32,075 nucleotides of DNA from a virus: positions 1-32,075 of IMG/VR virus record IMGVR_UViG_3300032286_000430. One strand, written 5' to 3'. The position numbers and the translations under genes were made by a program. Shown here in pieces: positions 12 through 30,043 of the stretch; within the stretch, counting starts at the first letter, position 1; each line of letters starts with the position of its first letter. The notes below the pieces were generated by a model. The model did no database searches. It saw only the letters and a list, made by a program, of their open reading frames with translations, and was not told where the DNA came from.

Positions 12-3000
12 ATGGCACTGACTGTAGACATCAAACCGGGTCAGGTCGGTAAGGAAGCCAACAAGTTGAAATTAAAAACTGACAGCCAAGGGCATCCACA
101 GATTGCCAATCCAAATGGCCTGTTTGAAAAATTAAGTTTAGAATTAGCCCAATTCAAAAAAAAGAATAAGTTAGCAGAATCAACAGAACAGCTAGACGAA
201 GTTAAAATGAGCCCAACAGCCTTGCAACGCTGGGCCAAGAGTCCAGAAGCTGCTGGCATCCGTGCTGGCTTTGAAGCTGAACTGATCTTCCGTGACACCA
301 ACAGCGGCGACGACAGTGAATATGACATGGAACCTGATTACGATGCCGACGAACGTTGTCGTAGCATACAACAAATCCTAGACTTTTTTAACAATGGTGA
401 GTACGGTGGCCTGACATCACGGCAAGAAGCACGCCTACAAGAAGGACTTGACGAACAGTATTATGAGTGGTACGACGAGCAAATGTACAAGGACTTTAGA
501 GAAGAAGCAGAAGACTTGATCCGTAAAGTTATGGTAGACGAAGGCGATTGGGATCTTGACAACGAAATACAAAAACAGTTGGAGTTGTTGAATTTAACTG
601 ATGATGAAATGAATGACATTATCAAAGCAGGCGAACGGGCACCCAAGTTTACGTCAAGCAAAGAACAGATCTTGTATGCTGAAGCCAACCCACTCTACGA
701 CAAATACCTAGATGCACAGAACGAAGCCGAAGGCTTGTTGGATGATTTAATAGCCGATGAAGTTCGTAAGGAAGGTGCCAACTGGGATGCCGCACTGGAT
801 GATTTCCGTGACAATTATCAAATTGATGATGATTCGGGCTTTTTTGATGATGCTGGCCTTCGCTGGATGAGTGATGTGGCCAACAGCTATGACCTAGACT
901 GGCCCTATATGACCGGTGGTGGCAACAACGGCGGTTCACGCAGTTGGGAAGAAATTGGAGATAGTTTACATGCGGCCATAGACATGCCGGTCAAAGTAAG
1001 CAGCAACTATCACAGTACTACACGTAAGGAAGGCTTATGGATCGTTGAGCCCGACACAAGTTTACACCCCGACGACAGTGAAGACTTTGGTTTGGAAATT
1101 GTAAGTCCACCATTGCCGTTGGAGCAAGCCTTAGAAAAATTACAAGCGGTAACAGACTGGGCTAACAGCTCAGAAGGCAACGCCTACACCAACAGCTCAA
1201 CAGGTTTACACATGGGTGTTAGTGTACCATTCAAAGGTGGCGATGTTGACTACTTGAAACTGATCTTGTTCTTGGGTGACGAATATGTATTACAATCGTT
1301 TGGTCGTGAAGCCAACACCTACACCAAATCAGCCATGAGCAAGTTCCGCGAAAATATTCGAGGTGGCCGCGCAGATCCAATGGGCGCAATCAAATTGATG
1401 CAACATGGCCTACTCGAATTGGCTTACAAAGAAATACAAAAAGGTGTAGGCGAAGGCAAGTATACGTCAGCACACATACAAAAAGGCTACATTGAATTCC
1501 GCAGTGCCGGTGGTGATTGGTTAGCAGAAGAAAATGCTGACCCTGAAAAATTATCCAGCACCATGTTGCGTTATGCTCGTGCTATGAGTATTGCGGCCAA
1601 CGCTAGTGAAGAACGCAGAGAGTATGCTAAAAAGTTATACAAGTTGGTAGCCCCCGAAGGTGACAGCCAACTGGCCCTGTTCAGTCAGTATGCCGCAGGT
1701 GAACTCACCGCAGAACAACTCAAGAAAAAGTGGGCTGAAAAGACCATTGGCACAGAAAAGAAAATGAATCAGCGTTGGAAACTGTATCAAAAGTTCAACG
1801 GCACATGGACCGCGGTACCTGGTGCAGAATGGAATGGTTACACAGAAGATCAAGTTAAAAATGCTGTATGGAGCAAGTATGGTCGCGAAGCTCTTGACTC
1901 TGGCGAATATCAACTGGTCAACATGGGCGAGCAAGACTGGGAAGTATATGATGTCAACTCTGGTGCCACTCTTGAAATAGTCAAAGGCAAGAGCAAAGGT
2001 GAAGTGGCTGATGCTGTGTTTGACAAGTATGCCAATGCTGGCGTAGGATTCAATGTGCGTCCGTATGTGGATCCAGCCACAATGACACCAAGAGCCAAGT
2101 TGGCCAAGCGTATCACAACCAAGAAACCAGAACCAAAACAAGTGGCCAACCAAGCGACCAACGAGCGTGGCATTCCTTACTGGGAAGTGTATGAAATTGA
2201 AAACGATCATGTGGTCCATACATTCCTAAGTGACACAGCAGCCGATGCAAAAGTAGATGGAGCAAATTGGTTGGAGAGTATCGGAGCTGAATACCCTGAT
2301 CTGTTTGCAGTAAGACCCAAGATAAAAACTGCACAGGTTCGGGATGTTGAACCCAATGTTGCTCAGAACTTTGGTCAGCCACAAGACGCTACAAATAGAG
2401 TAGGTAGCTGGAGCATATACGATGTTACCTTGGGGCGTGAAATCAGTAGAATGGACAATGTGGCATGGTCGCAGGCCGATGCTCGTGCCAACGAACTAGA
2501 ACGTAGCACTGGACACAACATGTCAGTAAGAGGGTTATCTGAAGCCGTTGATGCTGTATCTGGTACTGGTGCTATTGCTCGAGCTATTGCCAGTGCAAAA
2601 CCGCCTTTGCCTGTTCCGGTGCGTAGGAAAGATCCTGCGGTCAAGCTGGATATTAAAAAACAACAGAAAGATCCATACGCTCAAACGTATACAAAACTAC
2701 CGGTAACTGAAACACTGCCGGCCAAGAATCTCAACCAACTGTACAAGATCAAACAGCAGTTGTCTAATCCTGCATTTAGCACTGCCGAGCCTGCTGAACC
2801 TACAGCACCAGAGACACCAAAACCAGCACAGCCCAGGGTACACACAGCATTAGCAGATCTACAACGCCAGCGTGACAAGGTGCAACAGCTTATGAATCTC
2901 AAGCAGGAAATAGAACTACTGACAGCCCGTGCTGGTCGTACCCGTTATGGCATCACTCCAGGCCTGGCCGCCGATATTGAAGACATATATCCTAATCCGC

Positions 3001-3287
3001 AGACTGAAGCTGACATGGATGCGGCCATCCAGGGCTATGAAGTACAGAAGAAAAAGCTGGCGGATTATATTGCCCGTCAACGTCGGGTATTTCCCAAAGA
3101 AGATATTGAAGAAAACTTTGCCGACGGCAAGGTCAAGGGCAAAAGTCGTCCAGGTCGTGTAAAACGCTCTGGTGCCAGTTGCAACGGAAGTGTAACAGAT
3201 CTACGAGCCCGTGCCAAACGTGCAAGTGGAGAAAAAGCCAAGATGTATCATTGGTGTGCCAACATGAAGTCAGGAAAGAAAAAATGA
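12..3287 (+). CDS. Giant mosaic protein with amidoligase-like domain and W-x-x-Y repeats (5' end uncertain)
   Basis: The protein has at least 1091 residues. Residues about 82-405 carry the signature of the amidoligase (glutamine-synthetase-like COOH-NH2 ligase) family: GFEAE at 86-90, a W..EPD.SL segment near 342-350, GLEIVSPPL at 360-368 and GLHMGVSV from 398. A long acidic insertion separates the first motif from the rest. Residues about 580-850 hold four diverged repeats centred on W589, W643, W724 and W800. A Pro-rich linker, a short coiled coil (about 935-965) and a basic Cys-containing tail follow. LDE at 61-63 and other L-x-E sites fit a T4-type prohead protease. The ATG at 12 has no Shine-Dalgarno sequence and its frame stays open to the window edge, so the true start may lie upstream. 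The family would join an amino group to a carboxylate; the substrate is unknown. The cargo role is inferred from the neighbours. Confidence 0.7.
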   Translation: MALTVDIKPGQVGKEANKLKLKTDSQGHPQIANPNGLFEKLSLELAQFKKKNKLAESTEQLDEVKMSPTALQRWAKSPEAAGIRAGFEAELIFRDTNSGDDSEYDMEPDYDADERCRSIQQILDFFNNGEYGGLTSRQEARLQEGLDEQYYEWYDEQMYKDFREEAEDLIRKVMVDEGDWDLDNEIQKQLELLNLTDDEMNDIIKAGERAPKFTSSKEQILYAEANPLYDKYLDAQNEAEGLLDDLIADEVRKEGANWDAALDDFRDNYQIDDDSGFFDDAGLRWMSDVANSYDLDWPYMTGGGNNGGSRSWEEIGDSLHAAIDMPVKVSSNYHSTTRKEGLWIVEPDTSLHPDDSEDFGLEIVSPPLPLEQALEKLQAVTDWANSSEGNAYTNSSTGLHMGVSVPFKGGDVDYLKLILFLGDEYVLQSFGREANTYTKSAMSKFRENIRGGRADPMGAIKLMQHGLLELAYKEIQKGVGEGKYTSAHIQKGYIEFRSAGGDWLAEENADPEKLSSTMLRYARAMSIAANASEERREYAKKLYKLVAPEGDSQLALFSQYAAGELTAEQLKKKWAEKTIGTEKKMNQRWKLYQKFNGTWTAVPGAEWNGYTEDQVKNAVWSKYGREALDSGEYQLVNMGEQDWEVYDVNSGATLEIVKGKSKGEVADAVFDKYANAGVGFNVRPYVDPATMTPRAKLAKRITTKKPEPKQVANQATNERGIPYWEVYEIENDHVVHTFLSDTAADAKVDGANWLESIGAEYPDLFAVRPKIKTAQVRDVEPNVAQNFGQPQDATNRVGSWSIYDVTLGREISRMDNVAWSQADARANELERSTGHNMSVRGLSEAVDAVSGTGAIARAIASAKPPLPVPVRRKDPAVKLDIKKQQKDPYAQTYTKLPVTETLPAKNLNQLYKIKQQLSNPAFSTAEPAEPTAPETPKPAQPRVHTALADLQRQRDKVQQLMNLKQEIELLTARAGRTRYGITPGLAADIEDIYPNPQTEADMDAAIQGYEVQKKKLADYIARQRRVFPKEDIEENFADGKVKGKSRPGRVKRSGASCNGSVTDLRARAKRASGEKAKMYHWCANMKSGKKK
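1767..2520 (+). repeat. Four tandem W-x-x-Y protein repeats inside the amidoligase-like gene
   Basis: Four coding units begin QRWKLYQ, QDWEVYDVNSG, PYWEVYEIEND and GSWSIYDVTLG. Their lead tryptophans are at residues 589, 643, 724 and 800. Each continues with a short turn, a helix-like stretch rich in A/D/K, and an ending such as FNVRP, FAVRP or MSVRG. Similarity is at protein level only, with spacing of 54-81 residues, so this is old domain duplication and not a recent DNA repeat. The function is unknown; a small beta-alpha binding module is a guess. Confidence 0.6.
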
Positions 3288-4867
3288 AAGCTAATGAATT
3301 TGTCACCGAAGATTCAGCCAAGTCATGTCCGCCAGCCACGCAGGACATTACACTGAATCTCAAAAATCGTCAAAAAGCCATTGACGACTACGGCTATGGC
3401 CCACTAAATCCAGACCTGCCCAACGAAAAATTCTGGCAGGCCAAGGTTGATGAATGGAATCTAGATTCAGTGGATGAAGCCAAATCTAGCCTGTGCGGCA
3501 ACTGTGCGGCCTTTGATCAACGTAAAGACACACTGGCGTGTATAGCACAGGGCATTGGATCAGATGCCGGTGCCGAAGATCCCACTATCGAAGCTGGTGA
3601 TCTTGGCTACTGCCGTTTCCTCAAATTTAAATGTGCCAGTCGTAGAACCTGTGATGCTTGGGTAACAGGTGGTCCGCTGGTTGACAAAGAACCTGTGGAT
3701 GAAAACTTACACGATTGGTTTGGCAAAGAAAAATGGGTGCGTATGGACACCAAGGGCAATATCAAAGGTCCCTGTGCTAGAGGTAGTTCTAGTGAAGGCA
3801 AACCCAAGTGCTTGCCACAGGCCAAAGCACATGCTCTTGGCAAGGCGGGCCGTGCAAGCGCCGCACAGAAAAAACGCAGAGAAGATCCTGATCCCGAGCG
3901 TCGTGGTGCCGCAAAAAATGTGGCCACCAAGGTCAAAGAAGATGAGCTAGATGAAGCTTGCTGGAAAGGCTATCACAAAGAAGGCATGAAGACCATGTTT
4001 GGCAAACGCTATCCTAACTGTGTAAAGAACAAGAACGAAAGTTTGGAAGTATATGTTGACCGTGGTGAATGTCCAGGCTGTGGTGGTGCCATGGTTGCCG
4101 AAGACCAAATTGCAGAAAAACAAGATGCTTGTTACCACAAGGTAAAAAGCCGTTACAAGGTATGGCCCAGTGCTTATGCGTCAGGAGCCTTGGTTCAGTG
4201 CCGTAAAAAAGGTGCCGCCAACTGGGGCAACAAAAGTGAATCCACAGAACAAGAGCTAGACGAAAAGTGGAGCCAAAAATACAAGAGCAGTATTAACTGC
4301 TCTAACCCTAAAGGGTTTAGTCAAAAGGCACACTGTGCCGGTCGCAACAAAAATGAAAGTCAGGAGAATATGATGGATGAATTAGATAGAATTTTAGAAC
4401 TCAGCACAGGCATGAGTACGGAAGCACGAGCAGAATTAGCAGAAGAGTTTGATCTCATTGAGTCAAACATCAATCGGCTTGCTGAACGCAATGGTGTAGA
4501 TGCTGAAGCAATCTGGGAAGATTTAGAGACATTAACAGATGATGAACTTTATGTTTTTGCTGCTACAATGCCAATTATGGAAAGTCAAGGTGTAGCAGAA
4601 GACTGGCAAAAAGCCAACAAAAAGGATCGTACAGCGGGCATGAGTCAGAAAGCTGTCAATGCTTATCGTAGAGAGAATCCAGGTTCAAAATTAAAGACTG
4701 CTGTGACTACCAAGCCTAGTAAGTTAAAGAAAGGTAGCAAAGCTAGCAAGCGTAGAAAGAGCTATTGCTCACGTAGTCGTGGACAAATGAAGATGCACAA
4801 CATCAGCTGTGCCAAGACTCCAGACAAAGCTATCTGCAAGGCACGCCGCCGTTGGAACTGTGAATGA
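3284..4867 (+). CDS. Cys/Lys-rich modular phage protein with capsid-targeting-like N-terminus
   Basis: The protein has 527 residues. The ATG at 3284 overlaps the previous stop as ATGA and follows AGGAAAG; an in-frame start at 3179 is rejected because it would lie far inside the previous gene. It begins MKANEFVTED, close to the T4 internal-protein targeting peptide. Cys-rich modules follow: residues about 69-131 (SLCGNCAAF to CDAW), 142-212 (WFGKEKW, GPCARG, PKCLP, then a basic helix), 226-248 (FGKRYPNCVK), 262-316 (CPGC, CYHKVKSRYKVWPSAYASG) and 328-357 (INCSNPKGFSQKAHC). A helical acidic segment and a very basic C-terminal Cys tail complete it. The modules are joined by LDE-containing linkers. 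The Cys pairs suggest small zinc-binding or disulfide modules and the basic tails suggest DNA contact. No enzyme is recognisable. I infer an internal head protein. Confidence 0.72.
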   Translation: MKANEFVTEDSAKSCPPATQDITLNLKNRQKAIDDYGYGPLNPDLPNEKFWQAKVDEWNLDSVDEAKSSLCGNCAAFDQRKDTLACIAQGIGSDAGAEDPTIEAGDLGYCRFLKFKCASRRTCDAWVTGGPLVDKEPVDENLHDWFGKEKWVRMDTKGNIKGPCARGSSSEGKPKCLPQAKAHALGKAGRASAAQKKRREDPDPERRGAAKNVATKVKEDELDEACWKGYHKEGMKTMFGKRYPNCVKNKNESLEVYVDRGECPGCGGAMVAEDQIAEKQDACYHKVKSRYKVWPSAYASGALVQCRKKGAANWGNKSESTEQELDEKWSQKYKSSINCSNPKGFSQKAHCAGRNKNESQENMMDELDRILELSTGMSTEARAELAEEFDLIESNINRLAERNGVDAEAIWEDLETLTDDELYVFAATMPIMESQGVAEDWQKANKKDRTAGMSQKAVNAYRRENPGSKLKTAVTTKPSKLKKGSKASKRRKSYCSRSRGQMKMHNISCAKTPDKAICKARRRWNCE

Positions 4868-5448
4868 GATTTGCGGAATTTGTTGCTGAGCTCAACTATC
4901 CTGACGAATTAAATGTAAGTGATGCCTTACAGCAATACTTTACCCGTCGCGGCTATCAAGTTGCTGGCGAAGGCCGTGATCAAATAGCATTTCAAAGTCC
5001 ACGCGGCACTGTGGTCAAAGTGCTGGGTATTGGTGACACTGATCGTGAAGATGTGGTCAAACGCTATGTCAAGTTCTTCGTGGCAAATCAACGCAATCCT
5101 TACTACCCACGCATATACAACACTGGTGAATTTCCAGTGGGCAATGAAACTTACTTTGTGTATGAACAGGAATACTTGACCTACATATCCGACGAAGAAG
5201 AAGTGTTAGAATACATAGAAGATTTGATGTCGGCACTGCCGCGTGGAGAACAAGCATTACACGCATTCCAACAAAATCGACCCATGCCCAAGTCGTTGGA
5301 TCCAGGCGAAGTTGACGGACTTGTTGTGGCCACACAAGATCTTGAAGATGCCATAGGTGGAGCCGCACCGCTAGATTTGAGCATGATTGAAAATATACGC
5401 CGTCGCGCCAATGGACACCTAGTTATTATGGATCCTTACAGCCTATGA
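4864..5448 (+). CDS. Truncated protein-kinase-like protein with capsid-targeting-like N-terminus
   Basis: This 194-aa protein starts in an ATGA overlap and begins MRFAEFVAEL. After about 30 residues the layout recalls a protein-kinase or aminoglycoside-phosphotransferase fold. Beta strands around GRDQIAFQSPRGTVVKVLG would place K52 where the ATP-binding lysine sits. A helix follows (REDVVKRYVKFF), then a hinge-like FVYEQEYL at 98-105, and the chain ends at GHLVIMDPYSL, which resembles the strand leading to the metal-binding Asp (D190). No HxD catalytic loop is visible and the chain stops right after D190, so most of a C-lobe is missing. It may be a pseudokinase or a minimal kinase. Fold assignment is inference from motif order. 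It belongs to the presumed internal-protein block. Confidence 0.6.
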   Translation: MRFAEFVAELNYPDELNVSDALQQYFTRRGYQVAGEGRDQIAFQSPRGTVVKVLGIGDTDREDVVKRYVKFFVANQRNPYYPRIYNTGEFPVGNETYFVYEQEYLTYISDEEEVLEYIEDLMSALPRGEQALHAFQQNRPMPKSLDPGEVDGLVVATQDLEDAIGGAAPLDLSMIENIRRRANGHLVIMDPYSL

Positions 5449-6866
5449 GATTAAGAGAATTTGCACCCAGCCCCGATCGTGACAACAACGATGACGTTCC
5501 AGATCCTATCTTTGTGCTGGCTAATCGTTGGTGGAATGCCACGGACCGGCAACCGCAAATTGAACATGTGCTAAACAGCCTGGGTTGGAGCATACAGCAA
5601 GTTGAAAGTGAAGATGATGCTGTGCAACTGCAACATCGTGATGGCACCACACATTTTATTAGTGCTGATGACTTTGATCCTGATCTGTTTGAAGCTATTG
5701 AAACAGTGCGAGCACATCGCGGTGGTTTAGATTTAGAAGCAAGATCAGATGAAAAAGGCATCAGCATATATGCCCATGATGCAGGCGGTAGACAAATAGC
5801 CTTTGCACATTTTGATCGTACAGGGCAAACCATAACAGGGTTTGATACATCAGTTCGTCCTGAAGCTCGAGGTCAAGGCATTGCCGCAGTCATGTATGAT
5901 TGGGCCAAAGAGTTAGGCCATCGAGTGGTACGCAGTAAAGATTTGACAGATGCTGGACGATACTTTTGGCAAAAGAATCGCGGACAAAAACGTGTATGGG
6001 AAGACCATGTAAACGAAATAAGTGATGAGCTACGTCGTAACTATCTTGACCGTGCTGGCAAGGTTGTTGACCGCCGTATGGATCACATGGCTCGTGTGCG
6101 TGACCGTCTTAACAAAGGTTATGAAATTTACCATGCTGATCGTCCTGCAGGATCCGCACAGATAGTAGATCGTTTTGAAGCCGATACTCCTGCACTAGCA
6201 CGACAGTATTATGAACGGTTTATCACTCGTTATAATTCAGACGTAGACTTTGATTTGAGACTGCGTAGGGCTACCGGCATAATGGAAATAGCTCGAATTC
6301 CACAAGGTGACTTTGGCGATAAAGACACACTTGCACCCATGACAACCCGTCCTAAAACTCGACCCTTACCGGGTGGCAGTCGATTCTCTTATGCTGTAAA
6401 TCGAAAAAATCCCGAGTTTATGGAAATTATGATCTTTGACGGTGATGCCTTGGTGGCTGAAATGGATGTAGGAGCCACACTAGACCCACTTAAAACCTGG
6501 CGTGTAGAAACTGTAGCTACCGATCCAGACTATCGCGGTCAAGGCCTAGGCAAGGCCCTGTACGGCCTGGCGCTTACTGTGCTCAAACTTACACTTGAAA
6601 CCGGCGCAACACAGACAAAACACGGACAGGCCATGTGGCTCATGTTGAATAGTATACCCGGGGTAGAAGTCATGGGCTATGCCATGGCGCCCACCAAAGA
6701 ATATCGTGCTAGACCCGGTGATACGGTTGTAGATCAAAATGACCGTTGGACTCGTTATACATTCCCTGTAGAGCCCGGGCGGCGTAGTATGCGTAGCACC
6801 AGACGTGGCACTGGCATTTATAGTAGCCAGTATGTCAGCATGATAGCCAAGTGGACCGGATCGTGA
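5445..6866 (+). CDS. Tandem GNAT N-acetyltransferase, candidate packaged effector
   Basis: The protein has 473 residues and its ATG overlaps the previous stop as ATGA. It begins MRLREFAPSP, the targeting-like peptide shared with neighbours. Two separate GNAT acetyl-CoA binding motifs are visible. The first is VRPEARGQGIAAVMYDWA (R/Q-x-x-G-x-G at about 142-146), followed by a helix and a YFW segment. The second is DPDYRGQGLGKALYGLAL at about 360-377. About 170 residues between them are rich in Arg and helical. GNAT proteins move an acetyl group from acetyl-CoA to an amine on a protein or small molecule; the target here is unknown. An ejected modifier acting early on host proteins, as T4 Alt does by ADP-ribosylation, is an attractive inference. 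The GNAT assignment is firm and the role is not. Confidence 0.82.
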   Translation: MRLREFAPSPDRDNNDDVPDPIFVLANRWWNATDRQPQIEHVLNSLGWSIQQVESEDDAVQLQHRDGTTHFISADDFDPDLFEAIETVRAHRGGLDLEARSDEKGISIYAHDAGGRQIAFAHFDRTGQTITGFDTSVRPEARGQGIAAVMYDWAKELGHRVVRSKDLTDAGRYFWQKNRGQKRVWEDHVNEISDELRRNYLDRAGKVVDRRMDHMARVRDRLNKGYEIYHADRPAGSAQIVDRFEADTPALARQYYERFITRYNSDVDFDLRLRRATGIMEIARIPQGDFGDKDTLAPMTTRPKTRPLPGGSRFSYAVNRKNPEFMEIMIFDGDALVAEMDVGATLDPLKTWRVETVATDPDYRGQGLGKALYGLALTVLKLTLETGATQTKHGQAMWLMLNSIPGVEVMGYAMAPTKEYRARPGDTVVDQNDRWTRYTFPVEPGRRSMRSTRRGTGIYSSQYVSMIAKWTGS

Positions 6867-7051: not shown

Positions 7052-7069
7052 AACCCAGCTAAATACAGC

Positions 7070-7366: not shown

Positions 7367-7562
7367 GTTTGTTACGCTAACAGAAGAGGGCAGTGCCTGC
7401 GCCACTGTATCCGGCAGTATTGCGCCGGTTGAAATGGGCTTAGGCCCAGTCATTCGAAGAAATGGCGGAAGCATGTTTACAGGTAAATACTCTAATAGCG
7501 CGGATCCGTATCCGAATACTCCCGCCTATATGAAAAAAGGAAAAAAAGCTCGTGCTAAGTGA
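7353..7562 (+). CDS. Small protein with capsid-targeting-like N-terminus
   Basis: A 69-aa protein. The ATG at 7353 overlaps the end of the previous gene by 14 bases and is preceded by AAGGA at 7342-7346, a good ribosome binding site that supports the start. It begins MRLYEFVTLTEE, one of the clearest copies of the shared M-[K/R]-x-x-E-F peptide. The remainder is Gly/Ser-rich (SGSIAPV, GLGPVIRRNGGSMFTGKY) and ends in a strongly basic KKGKKARAK tail suited to nucleic-acid contact. No domain is recognised. Its size and charge recall the small internal proteins of T4 heads, which is an inference. Confidence 0.65.
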   Translation: MRLYEFVTLTEEGSACATVSGSIAPVEMGLGPVIRRNGGSMFTGKYSNSADPYPNTPAYMKKGKKARAK

Positions 7563-7992
7563 TTTATTAAAAACCTATTTGGCAAGTACATTTGCTTATT
7601 ACTTGAAGGCACACTACTTCCATTGGAATGTAGAAGGGCCGGATTTTGGCGAATTGCATGAGTTTTTCAGCAACATCTACGAAGATGCATATTCGGCTGT
7701 AGATCCCATTGCTGAATACATCCGTACCACAGAAGAATACGCACCCGGAAGCCTGAGTCGCTTCCAAGAATTAAGTCAAATACAGGACCAGACCAAGGTT
7801 CCTCGTGCCCGATTAATGTTACAAGAATTACTCGCAGATACACAGACCATGATTGACATGAGCAAGCAGGTATTTGATGTTGCTACTGGCGACGGTCGTG
7901 AAGACATTGCAAATTTTGCCGCAGAACGCCAGAGTAGTCATGGCAAATATTCATGGCAATTAAAGAGTTATTTGAAAGACGCAAGGGCATGA
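7552..7992 (+). CDS. Dps-family ferritin-like protein
   Basis: A 146-aa protein starting at GTG 7552, with AAGG at 7537-7540 and an 11-base overlap with the previous gene. The family signature is clear: H21 and H24-W25 in KAHYFHWNVEGPDF, then LHEFFSNIYEDAYSAVDPIAEYI with H36, D51 and E55 at the dinuclear ferroxidase positions. Dps proteins form 12-subunit shells that oxidise and store iron and protect DNA from hydrogen peroxide. Length is slightly short of the usual 155-170 aa because the N-terminal basic tail is missing, so direct DNA binding is less likely. Inside a block of presumed head proteins it may protect phage DNA or sequester iron during infection. Family confidence is high; role is inference. 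Confidence 0.85.
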   Translation: MLSDLLKTYLASTFAYYLKAHYFHWNVEGPDFGELHEFFSNIYEDAYSAVDPIAEYIRTTEEYAPGSLSRFQELSQIQDQTKVPRARLMLQELLADTQTMIDMSKQVFDVATGDGREDIANFAAERQSSHGKYSWQLKSYLKDARA

Positions 7993-8572: not shown

Positions 8573-11500
8573 ATGCTAACCTTAGATTTATTTAACACCC
8601 GCCATGAACAAGAACTGCACGAAGGTGCAGTGGACAACACAATCGCTAGATTGATTGAACCCTTGAGCCAACGAGCCGCTGATGTGCGTACACAGTTGCG
8701 TAATGGAAATCTCAGTCCAGCTGAAATAAAGGCTCTTGAAGCTGAATACGAAGATCTGGTTGCCAAGCGTCTAGACATTATTCATGGTCGCAGTCCTGCA
8801 CCACAAGACGAGTGCATGGGGTATGGCAGTCTAGGTGAAGCAGGTCTTCCGGATGTTGCTAATAAAGCCAACAAGATGGCTAGATTAAATCAGCCTGGCA
8901 AGGCAGGCACAGATGTGGTAACTCCACAACAGCGTGTGAATCCTAACCCCAACAAGGGCATTGTAGGTCACGCCAAAGATTGGCTGACTGGTAAAGGTGG
9001 TCCTGGCAAAGAAGGCCCAACTTACGAAAGCGAACTAGACGAGGAAGGTAATTACGATATCCCTCCAAAATATTTGTACGTAATTGATCAAATTAAAAAA
9101 GGATTTGATGAAGGTAAACCTGGTATTGATGTTACACTGCCTAACAACGAAACTGTGACTCTGACACGCACCACCATGTTCAATATTTTGGCAAGTCTGG
9201 GCAAAATGAGTCGTAAACAGATCAAACGACTGGTAGTTCGTTTTTTCAACGACAAGCACAGCCTGTTGACCTTGTTAAATAGTCCTTATATCAAACGTTA
9301 TCAAACTCCGCCAGTACCAAAACCAGTTCCGCCACACCCAGGCCAAGGTAGTTTAGGATTAGATGATCCTAACAAGATTGCCGAAGCTCAAAAAAAAAAT
9401 TCTAAAGAAGCGGATCTAACAGGCACTACAGCTGGCGATCCTATAGTGGCTCGCGAGTTGCGAAAGATACGTGGACGTCAACCATCTGCTAGATCTGATG
9501 TCGAAGCTTTGATGCGTGACGAAATGGATCGATCAGCTCGTACAGAACAACAACTTGCACAGCAAGAAGCCGAAATTGATCGTCAACAGCAACAGTTGAC
9601 ACAGTTGACTCAAGCCAATCAGACTCAAAGCTCTGATATCACTGCACAAGGTCGCGAAATTGACAACTTGACCAGAGATTTACAACAGGCTCGGGCTGAT
9701 CTACAGGCAGTCAAGTCTACACCAGCAATCAAGGCAGAACCAGCGGCTACGGCTAAAACAGAACCCACCGCAGTTGAACCTGAGTATATGCCACCTCCTG
9801 TACCAACCGATGCCAAGGATGATGCAAAAGTACAGCAACAGATACAGGATCTCAGCAAACAGTTGACCATGGCCACCCTGCAAATGAAGGAGCCTGGAGT
9901 TAGTCGGGCCGATCATAACAAGCTACAGCAAGCTGTAGATACTCTGCAGAAGCAGATTGAAAAACTCAGCAAGCGCAAAACCAATTATCGTCCAACTGGT
10001 AAGAAGTCTAATCAGTTGCCGGGACAAAAACAGGCTGCGACCAAGAACGCTGGCACTGCTAAACAAGTGAGAGCCAACCCAGCACAGTTAGGTATAGCCA
10101 CAGGTGTTGATCTTAATCCCTTGGCACAGCTCAACAAGAAAAATAAGTTTTCAAATAAGAAAAAAACAGAACCAGCAGTACAAACAATCGGTGGCGACGA
10201 AAATGATTGGTTTGCACCCTTGAGCGGATATAGTCAAGCAGCACAGCCATTACGTACAAACGAAGGTGCTATGAGTGAGCTGGATATTGAGCGTCAAGAT
10301 CTAGAGCGCATGACTGATCAGCAGTTCCTTAAGAACTATGGCATCAGCAAGGAGTTTTGGAAATACAAAAATCAAGCTGTCCTGAAAAAACCAGCTCGTA
10401 GACCCATGAGTGCCCAACTGGCTCGTAGTCCAGTGGGCAAGAAGATGAATGCCATGTACGGTTCAGCCTGTCCCGGCTGTGGTCGTTCAACCAATCCAGA
10501 TCGTTGCATCTGCGAAAGCACTCAACGCCTACATGCCGGAGATCCTATTATAGTCACAGCACCCAACGAGTTTGAAGGCGCCACAGGTGAGATTTATGAA
10601 CTCAGTCCAAGCGGTAAGTTTGTTGTTGTCGACTTGTACAATCACGGAAAACATAGCATGCACATATCAGATATAGAGTACAACAAATATGCCGATCAAG
10701 ATGATTGGTACGACGATGCTGACGAATTTGGCAAGCCAGGCAGTGAATTTTTTTCCGAAGCTGGCAATCCAAAATTGGCCGCTATTGTTAAAAATATCCA
10801 GGCACGAGTTCCTGCGGCTGCTGTCAAACGTCCTGAAATCATGCAACGAGTTGCACAAATGGTTGCTCAAGCTGACCCTACAGTGCCGGATGCCATGGCC
10901 ACAGCACAGCAGTTAGTTCAGCAGTATGGACAAGGTGCTCCTGCTCCTGCACAAACAAATGTAAACGATATCAAAGCACAAGCTCGCAGTGGCAATGCAA
11001 TGGCACAACTACCAAAAACAAGTGCTGGTACACCAACATATGCTCAACAACATTCAACATTTGAAGGATTCCAAGACTTTAACAAGGTCGAGCCATATGC
11101 TGTTTGCCTGGCTGGTAAGCCTGTTAAGAAGTTTGATTACTATGAACAGGCTCGTCGCTTCCACGACAACTGGAAGAAAAAGTTATACCGTGAAGGCAAT
11201 AAAGAAAAAGCAGATAAGATTACATTGATGCCGTTAAATCTGGATGAGGATGTTAAAACAATCAAAGGAGCTCATGGTCGATTAGATGTAGACACTAATA
11301 CTCCTGGAGTTACAAAAGTTAGACAAAAAGATCGCTTAGGTGCAAAAACTTTTACCAAAGATCCTTACAGAGTAGGTGGTAGTAGGATAGGGCAGAAATC
11401 GCCAGACACTTCACGTGGAAGTTCATTAAACAGTACAGGTGCCTATAATAGAAATCCCAGTGGCAGAACTTTTCCCAGATTAGATCACAGTGATGATAGC

Positions 11501-12856
11501 AATCAATTAGCTCACTATTCCGCTGAAGCTGCCAATGCCGCACAGCAGGCCGCTATTGCTATCGCTATGAAGAAGGCTGGTAAAAAGCCCAAGAATGAAA
11601 GTGATGATTATGATGATGGCGATTGGACAGATGATCCTGAGCAACACGTGGTGGTTAAAGCTCAACAACCGACACGCTATCCTGAGGCAGTGTTACGGGC
11701 CATTGAACGTAATCCGGCCATGCGTGCTGACATCATCGCCGACTACAAGCGCAAGCAAGGTGTAGCAGAAACAGCACTTAATCCTCGAGATCCTGCAGGT
11801 GACTATGCGGCCAAACGCAAAGCCTTACAAGATTTGGGAATGAACAAAGCGGTTGATCAAGCGGCTGTTCTACAGCGCAGACTAGATTTGGATCGTGAAG
11901 CCCGAGCCAAAGGTGTAGCGGAAGCCGAAACTGATTATTCTAAGCGTCGACAACGTGAGCGTGATGTTGATGCTGGTCGCCCAGTGAAACCCCTGCCTAA
12001 GAATCCGCAGACTGACTATGCTCGCAAACGTGCCAAGGAACGTCGTGACCTAGAACAATTTGGCGAAGGTTCTGATTTAATCAACATGTCAGATTTACAG
12101 TTTTATAAAGAATTATTGGGTGTTATGGTAATACCTGTTGCGGCATTTGGTGCCATGGCCTGGAATAAAGCTATGAATGCTATTAAATTATATCGTGCAG
12201 AGGATGTAGTTACAGCCCTACAGAAAAAAGGTGTCACTGTTGATCGTAGTACACTTGAACAAATTAAACCACTGTTACTAAAACTTGAACAGGCTATTGA
12301 TGTTGACAAAGATGGTGATGTGGCCAAAGAGTTAGCCAAGCGTATTCAACAAACAGTAACCTGGGGAAAATTAAAACAAGCTAATCCAAGAACTGATGCC
12401 AAGACGAAAAACACAGAACTTGGTGAAGAGTTCGAGATGCCCGGTACTACTATTCCACAGAAAAGTGTGATCCGTGGCTATGTGGTCTACTACAATCCAA
12501 AGACCAAAATAGTCAGTATCACACGACGTGGCGACAGTGAAGAAGCTGCTATTGAGCAGGCTCGATTGGGTAAACCTGGTATGCAGTCCTTTGAGACAAC
12601 AGTTTCCAAATTGATCAATCGACTTGAACAGGACCTGGTTGAAAGCGAAGAAGGCTCTGCCAGTGATGCAGTGGAGCAGGCTATCCTACGCAGAATCATG
12701 GTAGCACACACAGATCTACTCAAACAATTTGGTCCTGAAAAAGTCATGCAGGCCGCAGAAGAAGTGGCCTACAATGTGGGTGATGTAGACGAAATTGGTA
12801 CCAGTGATGTCAGTGCTTATGTTAACCAGGTTCGACAGATTTTAGGTGCCGAATGA
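8573..12856 (+). CDS. Giant 1427-aa mosaic protein, candidate head cargo polyprotein
   Basis: This is the longest gene. It starts one base after the previous stop and begins MLTLDLFNTRHEQELHE, a looser version of the shared N-terminal peptide. Along it are LDE at about 155-157; a helical region to about 240; a Gln-rich coiled coil at about 310-385; a zinc-finger-like C-x2-C-x8-C-x-C (C633, C636, C645, C647); an adjoining SH3/KOW-like beta segment (AGDPIIVTAPNEFEGATGEI); an Asp/Trp acidic patch; an Ala/Lys helix (AAIAIAMKKAGKKPK); GVAE and D-Y-x-x-K-R repeats near 1062-1165; a single hydrophobic stretch (about 1180-1197, GVMVIPVAAFGAMAW); and an EF-hand-like DVDKDGD at 1243-1249. Several linkers contain L-x-E. 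No single function can be assigned. It looks assembled from modules shared with neighbouring proteins and may be cleaved. Confidence 0.7.
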   Translation: MLTLDLFNTRHEQELHEGAVDNTIARLIEPLSQRAADVRTQLRNGNLSPAEIKALEAEYEDLVAKRLDIIHGRSPAPQDECMGYGSLGEAGLPDVANKANKMARLNQPGKAGTDVVTPQQRVNPNPNKGIVGHAKDWLTGKGGPGKEGPTYESELDEEGNYDIPPKYLYVIDQIKKGFDEGKPGIDVTLPNNETVTLTRTTMFNILASLGKMSRKQIKRLVVRFFNDKHSLLTLLNSPYIKRYQTPPVPKPVPPHPGQGSLGLDDPNKIAEAQKKNSKEADLTGTTAGDPIVARELRKIRGRQPSARSDVEALMRDEMDRSARTEQQLAQQEAEIDRQQQQLTQLTQANQTQSSDITAQGREIDNLTRDLQQARADLQAVKSTPAIKAEPAATAKTEPTAVEPEYMPPPVPTDAKDDAKVQQQIQDLSKQLTMATLQMKEPGVSRADHNKLQQAVDTLQKQIEKLSKRKTNYRPTGKKSNQLPGQKQAATKNAGTAKQVRANPAQLGIATGVDLNPLAQLNKKNKFSNKKKTEPAVQTIGGDENDWFAPLSGYSQAAQPLRTNEGAMSELDIERQDLERMTDQQFLKNYGISKEFWKYKNQAVLKKPARRPMSAQLARSPVGKKMNAMYGSACPGCGRSTNPDRCICESTQRLHAGDPIIVTAPNEFEGATGEIYELSPSGKFVVVDLYNHGKHSMHISDIEYNKYADQDDWYDDADEFGKPGSEFFSEAGNPKLAAIVKNIQARVPAAAVKRPEIMQRVAQMVAQADPTVPDAMATAQQLVQQYGQGAPAPAQTNVNDIKAQARSGNAMAQLPKTSAGTPTYAQQHSTFEGFQDFNKVEPYAVCLAGKPVKKFDYYEQARRFHDNWKKKLYREGNKEKADKITLMPLNLDEDVKTIKGAHGRLDVDTNTPGVTKVRQKDRLGAKTFTKDPYRVGGSRIGQKSPDTSRGSSLNSTGAYNRNPSGRTFPRLDHSDDSNQLAHYSAEAANAAQQAAIAIAMKKAGKKPKNESDDYDDGDWTDDPEQHVVVKAQQPTRYPEAVLRAIERNPAMRADIIADYKRKQGVAETALNPRDPAGDYAAKRKALQDLGMNKAVDQAAVLQRRLDLDREARAKGVAEAETDYSKRRQRERDVDAGRPVKPLPKNPQTDYARKRAKERRDLEQFGEGSDLINMSDLQFYKELLGVMVIPVAAFGAMAWNKAMNAIKLYRAEDVVTALQKKGVTVDRSTLEQIKPLLLKLEQAIDVDKDGDVAKELAKRIQQTVTWGKLKQANPRTDAKTKNTELGEEFEMPGTTIPQKSVIRGYVVYYNPKTKIVSITRRGDSEEAAIEQARLGKPGMQSFETTVSKLINRLEQDLVESEEGSASDAVEQAILRRIMVAHTDLLKQFGPEKVMQAAEEVAYNVGDVDEIGTSDVSAYVNQVRQILGAE
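11755..12069 (+). repeat. GVAE / D-Y-x-x-[KR]-R protein repeats inside the 1427-aa gene
   Basis: Three related units code for basic helices: GVAE...GDYAAKRKALQDLG, GVAEAETDYSKRRQRERD and NPQTDYARKRAKERRDLEQFGEG. Two carry the leading GVAE tetrapeptide. The same tetrapeptide starts a basic module in the gene at 3284 (GVAEDWQKANKKDR, near 4590), so the unit moves between proteins. The function is unknown; the Arg/Lys content suits nucleic-acid contact. Confidence 0.5.
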
Positions 12857-13654: not shown

Positions 13655-14719
13655 ATGCATCCTTACATTCCTGTAGCAGTTACAGGCCCTATACAAGACG
13701 TTAAAATTACTGATGAGATTCTGCATTGGTGGCCCTGGATTGCTGACATAAAAAACAAAAGAGTTTATCTAATGCTGTGTGCTCAGTGGAAGTGGGACGG
13801 TGGTTATCCAGATACGCCGCCGCCAGGTTATGACTACTACATCACGCACGGTGACAGTTACATGTTTGGATTTCCTGAACATATTGCTTCCAAGGTAGAT
13901 GGACGGATTATACACCTGACCGGTAGTATCATACCAGATAGCCTAGATACCGATCGCATACAGTATGTGAGTTACAATAACATACACCAACGCATCATGG
14001 GTATACCCAGGACCAGACCTTGGGTCAAGGATATACAATACAAGGCCAGTGCCTTGAACAATCGTGTGACCCAAAGCAAGGCCATTGTCTTTGCAGCATT
14101 AAAACAATACCTTGGCGACGATTGTGTAACTGCCTTGCACCACAACCTATATCGACCCAAAGACATACACAGTTGGGATTCCACTGGCAATGCTGTGTGT
14201 GATTACTTTTCTGAACAGTTTCAAACCACATGGAATCATCAAAAATTACAACTGCCCAAGGACGACGGCATTGAAGGCAGTTACAACAACACTGCCTATT
14301 GTCAAGCGGCACTGAACTTTACACAAGAAAGCTATCACTACAGCTTTACACAACACAATGGACGTGCTATATGTCGTCCAGGTCCGTTTATCACAGAAAA
14401 AACTTGGAAATGTTTATTAAGCGGTACAGCATTTATATCTGTTGGTCAGGCCTATGTGTATCGCTGGTTGCGTAGTCTAGGCCTACAGTTTGATTATGGG
14501 GCGTTAGATCTTGCATTTGATGAAGATGTGGGCGACTTGACACGTTTAGAAAAAATTGTTGCTGTAATAAAATCTCTACAGGAATGGTCGGCCGACGACC
14601 TTTATGAAATGACTAGAGCCAGTACGGAATACAATCAAGAGTATGTAGATTCTAACGCCTTCCGTATGACCTGTGAGCGCACAAATGAATCAGTACACCA
14701 CATGTTGGCCAATTTATGA
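13655..14719 (+). CDS. Glycosyltransferase-like protein
   Basis: A 354-aa protein and the first gene after the late promoter. The C-terminal half contains RPGPFITEKTWKCLLSGTAF then ISVGQ (about 245-268) and a long helical tail with a DEDVGDLTRLEKI segment. The TEK-W/I...L..G.xF...G pattern is the donor-binding signature seen in fucosyltransferase-like and related GT-B enzymes and in many phage proteins of this type. The N-terminal half alternates strands and helices (VYLMLCAQW, YYITHGDSYMFG, GRIIHLTGSI), as expected for a Rossmann-like acceptor domain. No membrane segment is visible. It ends in an ATGA overlap with a sugar acyltransferase-like gene, which supports work on a glycan of host surface, virion or DNA. 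Donor and acceptor are unknown. Confidence 0.6.
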   Translation: MHPYIPVAVTGPIQDVKITDEILHWWPWIADIKNKRVYLMLCAQWKWDGGYPDTPPPGYDYYITHGDSYMFGFPEHIASKVDGRIIHLTGSIIPDSLDTDRIQYVSYNNIHQRIMGIPRTRPWVKDIQYKASALNNRVTQSKAIVFAALKQYLGDDCVTALHHNLYRPKDIHSWDSTGNAVCDYFSEQFQTTWNHQKLQLPKDDGIEGSYNNTAYCQAALNFTQESYHYSFTQHNGRAICRPGPFITEKTWKCLLSGTAFISVGQAYVYRWLRSLGLQFDYGALDLAFDEDVGDLTRLEKIVAVIKSLQEWSADDLYEMTRASTEYNQEYVDSNAFRMTCERTNESVHHMLANL

Positions 14720-15309
14720 TTATTGGCAACAACAAACCTATCCGTATCATTGGCTACGCCCAGTCATCTATGACTCAAGAGTATGTGAATGAGATCAGTA
14801 AAACTCACACTGTACAAGTGGTCGAACCGCCTAACTTTGTAGCCGACACTGACTATCAGTATATTGTTGCTGTAACTTTGGATTTGGCAGAACGTAAACG
14901 CATGATTGATCTACTAGATCAAAACAACTTGGATCTGGTCACGGTCATACATGATACCAGTTTGATAGGATCCAACCCACCAGCTCAAATTGGTGCTGGA
15001 ACTTTTGTATTTCCATTTACTATTGTGGCGTTGGGTTCTGAAATTGGTCCACACAGCGTGATAGGCCCGTACAACCTAATTGGACACTACAGCCGGGTAG
15101 GGCGCAACTGTATTACTAGACCTGGAGTTATCATATCTGACAAGTCCACGGTGGGCGACGATTGTGTATTCAACATCAAGGCCACTGTGACCAACAAGGT
15201 CAAGATTGTGGATAATGTAGAAGTCATGGGTCTAACTAATGTGGTTAAAGATATTGATCAAGCTGGGCGCTATGTTGGCTCCAGTGCTAGACGTATCAGC
15301 GATTCTTAA
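14716..15309 (+). CDS. NeuD/PglD-like sugar O-/N-acyltransferase
   Basis: A 197-aa protein with an ATGA start. The first 90 residues form a small alpha/beta domain (IRIIGYAQSS, YIVAVTLDLAERKRMIDLL), like the sugar-binding N-terminal domain of PglD and NeuD. From about 92 on, hexapeptide repeats make a left-handed beta-helix: IGAGTFVFPFTIV, LGSEIGPHSVIGPYNLIGHY, SRVGRNCITRPGVIIS, STVGDDCVFNIKAT. The usual PglD N-terminal GxGG dinucleotide-like loop is replaced by GYAQSS. These enzymes acetylate an amino or hydroxyl group of a nucleotide sugar using acetyl-CoA. The gene converges on the minus-strand aminotransferase with a 14-base tail-to-tail overlap. Amino-sugar formation followed by acylation is a plausible joint function. 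Confidence 0.75.
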   Translation: MIIGNNKPIRIIGYAQSSMTQEYVNEISKTHTVQVVEPPNFVADTDYQYIVAVTLDLAERKRMIDLLDQNNLDLVTVIHDTSLIGSNPPAQIGAGTFVFPFTIVALGSEIGPHSVIGPYNLIGHYSRVGRNCITRPGVIISDKSTVGDDCVFNIKATVTNKVKIVDNVEVMGLTNVVKDIDQAGRYVGSSARRISDS

Positions 15310-21055: not shown

Positions 21056-21778
21056 ATGAAAGATCATTTATTAGACTTAGTAGAACACACACATGACCTG
21101 GGCGTTATCGACCTGGTCAAAATTACCGGTACTGATACCGAAACACAGATTTTTGGTGTAGCCGAAGATCGCAGTGTAGTGTTGGATGGCAAATTTGCTG
21201 GTCCAGTTGCTGATTTTATTGGCCTGTTTGGCATGCCCAATCTCAGCAAACTAAAGGTACTGTTAAACTTGCAGGAATACAAGGAAGGTGCTGACCTTAG
21301 TCTTACACGCAAGACCACAGGTGAACCCGACGGTATCGCTTTTAAAAATGCCGCAGGCGACTTTAAAAACAACTACAGATTCATGAGTTCTGAAATTGTT
21401 ACAGAAAAAGCCAAGGCTGTAAAATTCAAAGGTGTCAACTGGCACATTGAATTTGAACCCACTGTGGCTTCTATCCAGCGGCTCAAGATGCAAGCACAGG
21501 CCAATAGCGAAGAAGTAAACTTCCAGGTCAAGACCGAAAACGGCGACTTAAAGTTTTTCTTTGGAGATCACTCAACCCACGCAGGTAACTTTGTGTTCCA
21601 CCCAGGTGTAACCGGAACACTCAAGCGTTCATGGTCATGGCCAATCAAACAGGTTATCAGTATCTTGGATCTCACAGGCGACAAGACATTCAAGATCAGT
21701 GATGACGGTGCGGCACAGATCACTGTGGATTCTGGCGTGGCTGTTTATAACTACATCCTTCCTGCACAGACCAAATAA
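21056..21778 (+). CDS. 45: DNA polymerase sliding clamp, T4 gp45 type
   Basis: A 240-aa protein, close to T4 gp45 (228 aa). Gp45 forms a trimeric ring that tethers the polymerase and also activates late transcription at TATAAATA promoters. The sequence shows the alternating beta strands and amphipathic helices of the clamp: SVVLDGKFAGPVADFIGLFG, LSKLKVLLNLQEY, then a second half with MSSEIVTEK, WHIEFEPTVASIQRLK, VKTENGDLKFFFGDHSTHAG and a C-terminal TVDSGVAVYNYILPAQ, which matches the final strand of gp45 proteins. It has its own promoter and strong ribosome binding site, so it can be made in excess over polymerase. Clamp-loader genes are not in the window. Confidence 0.9.
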   Translation: MKDHLLDLVEHTHDLGVIDLVKITGTDTETQIFGVAEDRSVVLDGKFAGPVADFIGLFGMPNLSKLKVLLNLQEYKEGADLSLTRKTTGEPDGIAFKNAAGDFKNNYRFMSSEIVTEKAKAVKFKGVNWHIEFEPTVASIQRLKMQAQANSEEVNFQVKTENGDLKFFFGDHSTHAGNFVFHPGVTGTLKRSWSWPIKQVISILDLTGDKTFKISDDGAAQITVDSGVAVYNYILPAQTK

Positions 21779-26268: not shown

Positions 26269-26984
26269 TCCTAGTAAATGGTTGTAGTTTTAGTCAAGGG
26301 AAATATTCTTGGCCAAATCAATTACAAACATTTAAACAACATCAAATTGTCAATTTGAGTTGCAGCAGTGCTGGCAATACCTACATTCATGAATCTACAG
26401 TGAACGAATTATCTCACAGGTCATATCAGGCAGTATTAATCATGTGGTCAGGACTAACTCGGATTGACACCCAAGTTAGTGATATCGGTAAGTTTGAGAA
26501 TTCGTGGTATAATAGTAAATTTGCAGCTGAGCACAACGACTGGCCTGAAAAAATAACCACACCAGTGAATGATCAAGAATTTGTAGACAAGAATTGGGTA
26601 TTTGGTCTAGGTGAACAAAATCGTGACAAGGTTGTTACACAAAGTGGTCTGTTCACCGGGTTATATAAACATATGGAACTAACACAATTTGTGTTTCATT
26701 TTTTAATCAAGTTAATCAGTTTGCAAAATACTTTAAAAATTATGAATTTGCCATATTGTTTTATGTTTTATCAGCCATACCAAAAAGTCTTGCAACAGTT
26801 TCCAGAATTGTGTAAACTAATTGACTGGAATAACATTTATCTTGAACAAAATATTTTTGAGATGGCCAAAGTAAACAACGACTTTGATTCTACCAATCAT
26901 CCCGGAACAATGACACATAAACGATGGGCAACTGTTGTAGATCAAATTATTATAAACAAATTATTAAGAGAAGAATATGCGTAA
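26265..26984 (+). CDS. SGNH/GDSL hydrolase-like protein
   Basis: A 239-aa protein with an ATGA start. The N-terminal VNGCSFSQGKYSWPNQL fits block I of SGNH hydrolases (G-D/C-S-F/x-S, with the nucleophilic Ser). NLSCSSAGNTYIHES recalls the G-containing block II, MWSGLTRID the block III region, and STNHPGTMTHKRWA the C-terminal D/N-x-x-H block with the catalytic His. The usual block I Asp (GDS) is Cys here. SGNH enzymes remove or add acyl groups on sugars and lipids. In this cassette an acetyl-glycan esterase or transferase is plausible; no signal peptide is present. Moderately sure of the fold, not of the substrate. Confidence 0.65.
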   Translation: MILVNGCSFSQGKYSWPNQLQTFKQHQIVNLSCSSAGNTYIHESTVNELSHRSYQAVLIMWSGLTRIDTQVSDIGKFENSWYNSKFAAEHNDWPEKITTPVNDQEFVDKNWVFGLGEQNRDKVVTQSGLFTGLYKHMELTQFVFHFLIKLISLQNTLKIMNLPYCFMFYQPYQKVLQQFPELCKLIDWNNIYLEQNIFEMAKVNNDFDSTNHPGTMTHKRWATVVDQIIINKLLREEYA

Positions 26985-29132: not shown

Positions 29133-30043
29133 CTCAACCAGCAATGAACAACCTTAAGGCATTGAATTTTGGGGGAGCATCCAGTGTTGTTGATCCCACT
29201 ATGTTGTCTTCAATGTATGATGTTATTTTTGATCTAGCCAATCAAGGTGAGTTCTTAGACAACTTAGAAATTCAAAATAATTTTTTATCTCGGTATCAAG
29301 CATGGATACGGGCCACCAAACTTAACAGCTTATCAGGACTAGATCAATTTCCTATTGCGGCATTTAGTAACGGTACCACCGAGGCTTTTGACAAGTTTTA
29401 TCTTAAAAATTCTCGTTGCAGATTTAGATGCTTTCGTGGTGAGTACATGTATCATCAAGCGGCCTGGCGTAACTATTTTCCAGGATGGAAACACATTGAA
29501 GATGAACCCTTGGCCGCCGGCGATGCTGTAGTGGTCAGCATGCCATTTAGCGACACCGGTGACATTCATACTGAAAGCATGGCTGTGCTTGATCAATGCG
29601 ATGCCTTGGGCATTCCAGTGTTGATTGACTGTGCATTTTTTGGTATCTGTCAAGGTATTGAATTTGACTTTGATCGTCCTTGCGTCACCGACATTGCATT
29701 TAGTCTGAGCAAAAGTTTTCCTGTGGCAAACTTACGCATAGGCATGCGACTTACTCGTACCGATGATGACGATTCCTTGTTGGTACACCACAAAACAAAC
29801 TACAACAATAGACTGTCCTGTGCTGTAGGATCAATTTTATTAGAAACTTACACAGCCGATTACAATGTCAAAACTTGGAGTGCCGCTCAATTAAAATTTT
29901 GCAAGCAACTGGGAGTGACACCAAGCAAGAGTGTGGTGTTTGGTCTAGGCGGCTCTGACTTTGTTAAATATAATCGAGGTGGTACTACCAACCGCTTGTG
30001 CTTTGCAAAATATCTGTACAGTGGAATCCTTCCTAGTGATTGA
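29129..30043 (+). CDS. PLP aminotransferase-like protein (fold type I)
   Basis: A 304-aa protein with an ATGA start after the epimerase. The fold-type-I markers are present: FSNGTTEAFDKFYLK for the cofactor phosphate loop, AVVVSMPFSDTGD, then PVLIDCAFFGICQGIEFDF with the pyridine-binding Asp, and FSLSKSFPVANLRIGMRLTR with the PLP lysine (S-x-S-K). The C-terminal small domain is short compared with the usual 380-400 aa. Aminotransferases or related PLP lyases would act on an amino acid or a keto sugar. Placement after GalE suggests amino-sugar or amino-acid decoration of a glycan. Confidence 0.75.
   Translation: MTQPAMNNLKALNFGGASSVVDPTMLSSMYDVIFDLANQGEFLDNLEIQNNFLSRYQAWIRATKLNSLSGLDQFPIAAFSNGTTEAFDKFYLKNSRCRFRCFRGEYMYHQAAWRNYFPGWKHIEDEPLAAGDAVVVSMPFSDTGDIHTESMAVLDQCDALGIPVLIDCAFFGICQGIEFDFDRPCVTDIAFSLSKSFPVANLRIGMRLTRTDDDDSLLVHHKTNYNNRLSCAVGSILLETYTADYNVKTWSAAQLKFCKQLGVTPSKSVVFGLGGSDFVKYNRGGTTNRLCFAKYLYSGILPSD

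Follow-up and report, generated by a model that had tools for sequence, protein, structure and literature searches.

The open reading frame (ORF) P0001 occupies positions 8573 to 12856 on the plus strand of a 32-kb virus fragment, IMG/VR record IMGVR_UViG_3300032286_000430 (32,075 nucleotides, called the window here), and is uninterrupted throughout its 1427 amino acids. It is a real, modular ORF from what appears to be an uncultivated T4-like virus of bacteria. We consider it likely that P0001 is a head-packaged 'polyvalent' polyprotein of a T4-like phage, probably a jumbo phage, that is cut by the prohead protease into modules and diversified by recombination at a short linker. A short N-terminal leader would bring P0001 into the prohead core, like the capsid-targeting sequences of the T4 internal proteins, and an S77 (gp21-type) prohead protease would cut after the glutamate of hydrophobic-x-E sites, which are proposed at the leader (LHE/G, the slash marking the predicted cut), at the QGVAE/ linkers and at further module borders. 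Cleavage would leave several small modules free within the head, which could enter the cell along with the DNA and act there on the host in the manner of T4 Alt and IPI. Recombination within the linkers would allow modules to be gained, lost and reordered with frame and cut site preserved. The sequence comparisons themselves show the modularity, where the seams lie, the conservation of the linker both as DNA and in frame, the near-invariant glutamate, the leaders, and the protease and gp23 in relatives. Targeting, cutting, packaging, ejection and the recombination mechanism are inferred, and for P0001 itself packaging and injection from the leader only.

The modular nature of P0001 was evident from its relatives. 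In the loci compared, 56 ORFs aligned to it (including the window's own copy; overlapping fetches of one contig were counted more than once, here and in the border counts below), and many of them have in common the first 90 to 110 and/or last 70 to 80 residues together with a few internal modules. Among uncultivated T4-like relatives both ends are conserved, and the middle is gained, lost and reordered. Module order can be reversed, with the cysteine motif at residue 633 followed by the KOW module at 656 in the window, and KOW at 678 followed by the cysteine motif at 811 in locus L009. The initial annotation of the window, made from its letters, had described a mosaic of short unrelated modules in one frame, and this observation is confirmed, since the frame is open for 1427 amino acids and the modules recur separately and in other orders.

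The linker has the form (K/E)Q-GVAE-G and corresponds to a 20-base DNA seam, AGCAAGGTGTGGCGGAAGGC. Three of the counts given below (45 contexts, 73 near-matches and 96 sites) come from loci not selected by the linker. The 393-site, leader, seam, module and Pfam sets include, besides loci retrieved by homology, others retrieved by an 18-base search string (18-mer; L214 to L332), so that codon counts in these sets are biased. Among P0001 homologues, GVAE occurs in 45 distinct contexts, often preceded by K or E and then Q (Q in 29 of 45) and followed by G in 25 and A in 10. Its codons are nearly fixed over these contexts (GGT 44, GTG 32, GCG 33 and GAA 39), GCG being 7% of the alanine codons in these phages. 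Among the 393 sites of the biased set, Q was preceded by a codon AAG, GAG or CAG in 171 cases versus AAA, GAA or CAA in 62 (CAA by subtraction), and as this position lies outside the 18-mer used for the search, the preference points to a DNA signal beyond it.

Viral contigs yielded at least 120 stretches with the exact 18-mer versus 6 with a synonymous 18-mer, although the codons of the latter are jointly about four times likelier by the codon usage of these phages; the six control stretches lay in contigs of 58 to 70% GC, and the linker frame was the longest in one of them. All 101 exact matches examined, from 80 of the 119 loci retrieved by the 18-mer, read QGVAEG, and in each case this frame was the longest of the three forward ones. 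Loci chosen by their homology either to the DNA polymerase or to P0001, 2.25 Mb in total, contained 73 matches at 0 to 3 mismatches, 73 of 73 in one frame, versus 0.0 in mononucleotide shuffles; at 4 mismatches there were 23 in the linker frame and 11 in others, with 9.7 expected over all frames. The sharing of GVAE between proteins, which the initial annotation had picked out, is accordingly not a chance effect. Of 26 records, six of them picked for holding the 18-mer, 18 held 58 linker matches at up to 3 mismatches, on a single strand in 17 records and on both in G027, and the reversed pattern matched once overall. At the same threshold there were none in the phages Phosso, Atu_ph07, T4, Bellamy and S-P4. 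A bacterial origin of the linker was also considered, but the 26 stretches found in 257 Gb of genomes, versus about 7 by simple arithmetic, were taken as chance; they lay in contigs of 53 to 74% GC, and the linker frame was the longest of six in 9 of the 26.

Homology between ORFs breaks at the linker. For this analysis the set of linker ORFs was reduced from 195 to 158 by dropping a 240-amino-acid MKDHLL family, ORFs without linker-like context and ORFs below 150 amino acids. With linkers masked, 302 of 2182 alignment ends fell within 3 residues of a linker, versus a mean of 55 for shifted linkers, and random six-residue masks used instead had 81 to 98 of 2254 to 2312 ends near them in four controls. 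Without masking, the near side was not enriched (73 versus 61) and the far side was (263 versus 61), as expected if alignments run on through the shared linker. Borders of P0001 alignments lay within 3 residues of a hydrophobic-x-E in 13 of 53 cases versus 4.5 expected, and in the wider set the alignment ends away from linkers were also enriched for this pattern (218 of 890, null 122.9). The initial annotation had taken the GVAE segment as a sign of exchange between proteins; exchange stands, but GVAE is a recurrent seam between modules and not itself the exchanged module, so that the earlier interpretation is supported in part.

The modules between the seams occur beside varied neighbours. 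The linker ORFs contain 196 internal modules with a median of about 72 amino acids, 46 of which fall into 19 shared clusters. One 62-residue module has seven copies with seven different left and six different right neighbours, and in each of the three clusters with at least three copies both the left and the right neighbours vary. A nearly identical pre-linker stretch, MEFAPQLLVKQVLG, is present in L224, L256 and L287 with different modules after the linker. A filled and an empty site could be compared between L108, with a 69-residue insert flanked by two linkers, and the window ORF at 3284 to 4867, which is empty; in the sole other case found (L240 versus L219) the linker is at one end of the insert only. 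A separate observation concerns L162 (G025), where residues 174 to 302 of the ORF hold two similar tandem 59-residue modules with GVAE linkers at a spacing of 64 residues, probably a duplicated cassette.

The linker carries the signature of a cut site. Over 96 linker sites, among them 23 in-frame matches at 4 mismatches of which some are probably chance, the non-synonymous changes per codon for Q, G, V, A, E and G were 34, 12, 18, 14, 1 and 36. The glutamate is therefore nearly fixed (kept in 95 of 96), hydrophobic residues occupy the position two before it (V, M or I at 94 of the 96 sites, with 15 of the 18 changes of V being to Met) and the one between is freer. T4 gp21 is described as cleaving after the glutamate of L/I-x-E (PMC9026906). 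At the level of sequence, the residue pattern of the linker is that of this prohead protease. The same pattern stands where linker DNA is absent: the leader site reads [L/I]-x-E followed by G in 16 of 16 aligned sequences, the window included (x being H, R, Q, A, N, V or T), and the border of the C-terminal domain is preceded by hydrophobic-x-E in 17 of 17 sequences by eye, two of them one column off.

Leaders are the third element of the pattern. A hydrophobic-x-E ending at residues 8 to 15 was found in 57 of 95 linker ORFs (shuffled mean 14.5) and in 308 of 1884 other ORFs (shuffled mean 199), the latter including non-genes as well as some real-looking ORFs with the same leaders and no linker. 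Typical N-termini of linker ORFs are MRAHEFIVE, MKTTDFITE, MRINEILVE and MRATEFIIE, and the leader abuts the linker in MRINEILVE-QGVAEG and MRATEFIIE-GVAEG. Many resemble the leader of T4 IPI, MKTFKEF...ITE, which we take to be cleaved as ITE/A. As a side observation, MRASEFIIE, MRAREFLIE and MKAHEFIFE lead ORFs without a GVAE linker in related loci, so that the cargo set may exceed the linker set.

A protease that could carry out such processing is present in some relatives. A T4-type DNA polymerase is encoded downstream of P0001; its nearest counterparts among named phages belong to Sinorhizobium phage Phosso (49.6% identity) and to Agrobacterium phage Atu_ph07 (46.5%), and still closer relatives are uncultivated contigs, three of 317 to 337 kb. 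In a whole-record comparison 9 of 11 polymerase relatives had a P0001 match, and in many loci fetched by polymerase a P0001 homologue lies a few kilobases upstream of that gene. An S77 prohead protease and gp23 were found together in 4 of 8 large polymerase relatives checked, and the gp23 N-terminal regions of relatives carrying both contain VILE and YLRE or YLKE. A gp21-type S77 protease was also present in 1 of 19 P0001-related records.

Several results weigh against the packaged polyprotein. The S77 protease and gp23 are both missing from the other 4 of the 8 large relatives, which are perhaps incomplete records; one of the four relatives with both, G022, has neither a P0001 match nor a linker match; and no protease or capsid gene was seen in the searched parts of the window. 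The linkers carry V or M where the T4 motif has L or I. The number of hydrophobic-x-E patterns in P0001 is not raised against shuffles (18 versus 19.5), and it is their placement that is unusual. Away from linkers, alignment starts were barely enriched for the pattern (152 of 915, null mean 127.5, maximum 156). Finally, at least 57 of 74 and at least 44 of 70 linker ORFs had no Pfam match at E<=1e-4, and the cargo activity of their modules is putative.

One alternative is that the linker is only a recombination seam or a micro-mobile DNA element and P0001 an uncut multidomain protein of the virion or cytoplasm. The linker DNA is conserved beyond what the peptide needs, and GVAE is short, with a V that falls outside the T4 motif as published (PMC9026906). 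A pure DNA element would, however, be expected in other frames and outside genes, and the exact and near matches kept to one frame without exception; nor would it account for a glutamate that is the sole nearly immutable residue, or for hydrophobic-x-E at the leader and the C-terminal border. We regard this alternative as improbable.

A second possibility is that P0001 belongs with the assembly-core or scaffold proteins, such as gp22, gp67 and gp68, and is chopped by the protease and discarded rather than injected. The enzyme, LysM and SutA domains in sister linker ORFs, and the turnover of modules between relatives, would be odd for a scaffold, and the relatives give the impression from sequence of having other core-protein-like ORFs beside gp23. 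Set against this, T4 core proteins are cut to several fragments and mostly removed (PMC9026906), and parts of P0001 have, by eye, a low-complexity or coiled-coil-like appearance. On balance a scaffold role seems quite unlikely.

A tail fibre, tape-measure or baseplate protein is a very remote candidate. P0001 is large, and the cyanophage homologues of the ORF at 3284 to 4867 sit among neck, terminase and tail genes; P0001 nevertheless matched no tail family, has the leader and cut-site pattern, and is accompanied by genes whose matches, in the part of the window genes searched, were enzymes and the DNA polymerase and no tail family. Pfam gave no P0001 match over the cut-off, tblastn against 50,697 phage records gave none at E<=1e-3, and PHROGs gave a partial match over residues 1065 to 1123 to phrog_26930, of unknown function, and one weak match. 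Neither the named phages nor the family libraries that were searched contained a full-length relative, in keeping with the initial annotation, which had seen no known structural protein in this layout; PHROGs, Pfam and the phage records held no full-length tail-fibre, tape-measure or scaffold match. A chimeric contig or mis-called ORF, which a metagenomic contig of mosaic look might suggest, has a negligible probability, as the ends and modules of P0001 recur in many independently assembled contigs.

The packaged, protease-cut polyprotein also fits the content of the linker ORFs. Pfam was scanned with 144 of the 158 ORFs (12 were over the size limit and two, one each in L199 and L013, were dropped by hand). 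They hold GNAT, cytidine deaminase, nucleotidyltransferase, amidoligase, LysM, chitinase and SutA RNA polymerase-binding domains, with 1 to 4 members each. At E<=1e-4 the two scans, of 74 and 70 linker ORFs, listed 8 and 14 Pfam families respectively, and none of these is a peptidase. The domain contents fit head-packaged effectors and the 'polyvalent protein' idea, in which, according to Iyer et al. 2017 (PMC5512222), many disparate domains on one phage polypeptide are thought to be injected, domain order is mosaic and processing is proposed to fall to a fused metallopeptidase. P0001 is alike in its disparate domains in one chain (cysteine, KOW and helical C-terminal modules) and their mosaic order, and unlike in that the phage's own prohead protease, which its sites fit, would do the processing. 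The word 'linker' does not occur in that paper.

Among other known systems, the T4 internal proteins IPI, IPII, IPIII and Alt, which are cut by gp21, resemble the P0001 type in the short N-terminal leader and hydrophobic-x-E, with S77 protease and gp23 present in relatives. Each T4 internal protein carries one body, whereas the P0001 type has several modules per chain, repeated internal sites and a DNA-conserved linker (0 in T4). In the giant phages phiKZ and SPN3US many head proteins are cut C-terminal to glutamate by S77 proteases, as predicted for P0001, with the motif S/A-x-E in phiKZ; module shuffling through a shared linker is not described in the portions of that literature available to us. 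The 'T4-like structural protein' GC0119 of cyanophage S-P4 and its Bellamy homologue have modules in common with the ORF at 3284 to 4867, but neither record has the linker DNA at up to 3 mismatches. Titles and abstract starts of open-access literature on capsid targeting, cyanophage virions, polyvalent proteins and shuffling described no such linker, and those of the matches listed for the string 'QGVAE' showed no phage work, most concerning alpha-synuclein.

A more ambitious proposal is that the linker ORFs hold integron-like cassettes, the 20-base seam, common to many uncultivated phages, being both the crossover site of modules and the code for the prohead-protease site. This is possible, though we lean slightly against it. 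Because the linker is nearly identical as DNA across seams, modules could be exchanged without losing frame or cut site. If the cassette proposal is true, phages could trade injected effector domains as plug-ins, frame and processing included, and a single seam serving both the exchange of DNA and the cleavage of the protein would account for multidomain effectors that are shuffled yet functional. Phages deliver proteins into cells to seize control and counter defences, and finding these proteins is difficult, since many look like nothing described so far. The leader and the 18- to 20-base linker would make candidates findable by text search (a single viral collection gave at least 120 stretches), and the 196 internal modules, from ORFs mostly without a Pfam match, are candidate host-takeover or anti-defence factors.

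Table 1. Features of P0001 and its upstream neighbours in the window (slash, predicted cut; pLDDT, predicted local distance difference test)
Feature	Position	Strand	Remarks
Neighbour of P0001 kind	3284..4867	+	Leader MKANEFVTE; one QGVAE linker at 4586-4603
Neighbour with leader MRFAEFVAE	4864..5448	+	Weak kinase-like match, phrog_15752, E 7.6e-4
Neighbour with partial leader MRLREF	5445..6866	+	Two matched GNAT acetyltransferase stretches
CTAAATAC	7059..7066	+	Precedes ORF at 7070
N-terminal leader MLTLDLFNTRHEQELHE	8573..8623	+	Candidate capsid-targeting sequence; final L-H-E then G
Conserved N-terminal domain	8624..8839	+	Terminates GYGSLGE/A; 8 alignment ends at residue 90, 4 starts at 88
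Cysteine (zinc-ribbon-like) module	10265..10516	+	Terminates CICE/S; 88% identity in L009
KOW/SH3-like module	10517..10708	+	AlphaFold2 core blocks pLDDT 79-92; Foldseek best NusG/Spt5 KOW
Small module EGFQDFNK..NLDE/	11063..11248	+	Up to 94% identity in other ORFs; 9 alignment ends at residue 893
Module closing with linker QGVAE/T (residues 1062-1066)	11636..11770	+	Linker copy more than 3 mismatches from the 18-mer
Linker KGVAEA	11909..11926	+	3 mismatches to the 18-mer
Module with hydrophobic stretch and non-conserved DVDKDGD loop	12068..12424	+	83% identity in L027; about 35% in L079/L106 stand-alone ORFs
Conserved C-terminal helical domain	12644..12853	+	LVE/S precedes; 17-sequence alignment including window; model mean pLDDT 74.7

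Modules along P0001 are listed in Table 1. The cysteine and KOW modules are supported, as the initial annotation had proposed in naming zinc-finger-like and SH3/KOW-like segments. The C-x2-C-x8-C-x-C site spans residues 633 to 647 (nucleotides 10469 to 10513), and its cysteines (CPGC...C-x-C) are conserved in L004 and L009. In the Foldseek ranking for the KOW module, NusG was followed by Spt5 KOW, ribosomal uL24-type and Tudor barrels, and weak uL24 profile matches were also found. An EF-hand, suggested earlier from the DVDKDGD loop at residues 1243 to 1249, was rejected; the loop is retained only in the close relative L027, and the more distant L079 (refetched as L157) and L106 have DDEG or DNEG with a gap at this site. 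The hydrophobic stretch of the same module is at residues 1181 to 1197. The C-terminal domain had no credible fold match in the PDB, and neither it nor the 62-residue module matched the phage collection. GVAE occurs twice in P0001, at residues 1063 to 1066 and 1114 to 1117, and the mature fragments that the initial annotation hinted at would be a sound guess if the cleavage predicted here takes place.

In the window, leaders are found on the left-hand genes (3284, 4864, 8573 and partly 5445) and not on the polymerase or most right-hand genes. The homologue of the ORF at 3284 to 4867 in cyanophage S-P4 is annotated as a 'structural protein'. The octamer CTAAATAC presumably resembles a T4 late promoter, of which ATAAATA is the core, and the plus strand has no other ATAAATA or CTAAATA after it before 13614. 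Of 104 linker ORFs, 14 have ATAAATA in the 60 bases before their start, versus 2 of 525 random places. Downstream of CTAAATAC and two genes upstream of P0001, positions 7552 to 7992 encode a Ferritin/Dps-like protein (PF00210, E 3.9e-20), which might also be head cargo. A 1091-residue ORF at 12 to 3287 has an Amidoligase_2 match and, by eye, long low-complexity stretches; its style is that of the cargo proteins, but it has no leader at the called start.

GVAE is also present in two other ORFs of the window, in the neighbour at 3284 to 4867 (ESQGVAEDW) and, unrelated, at 21056 to 21778 (IFGVAEDRS). The latter encodes a 240-residue MKDHLLDL protein near the polymerase, and IFGVAEDRSV is kept by many of its homologues; it is not a linker. 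In L214 to L293, SLNE, SLEE or TLNE frequently comes just after the linker, a potential second hydrophobic-x-E site. The stretch KVINTYLWHGSRQKIP comes directly after QGVAEG in L274 and L278, where the preceding residues differ, and its WHGS stretch may be reminiscent of ADP-ribosyltransferases. By eye, the regions at 14716 to 15309 and 26977 to 31396 of the window have a look of sugar or polysaccharide metabolism.

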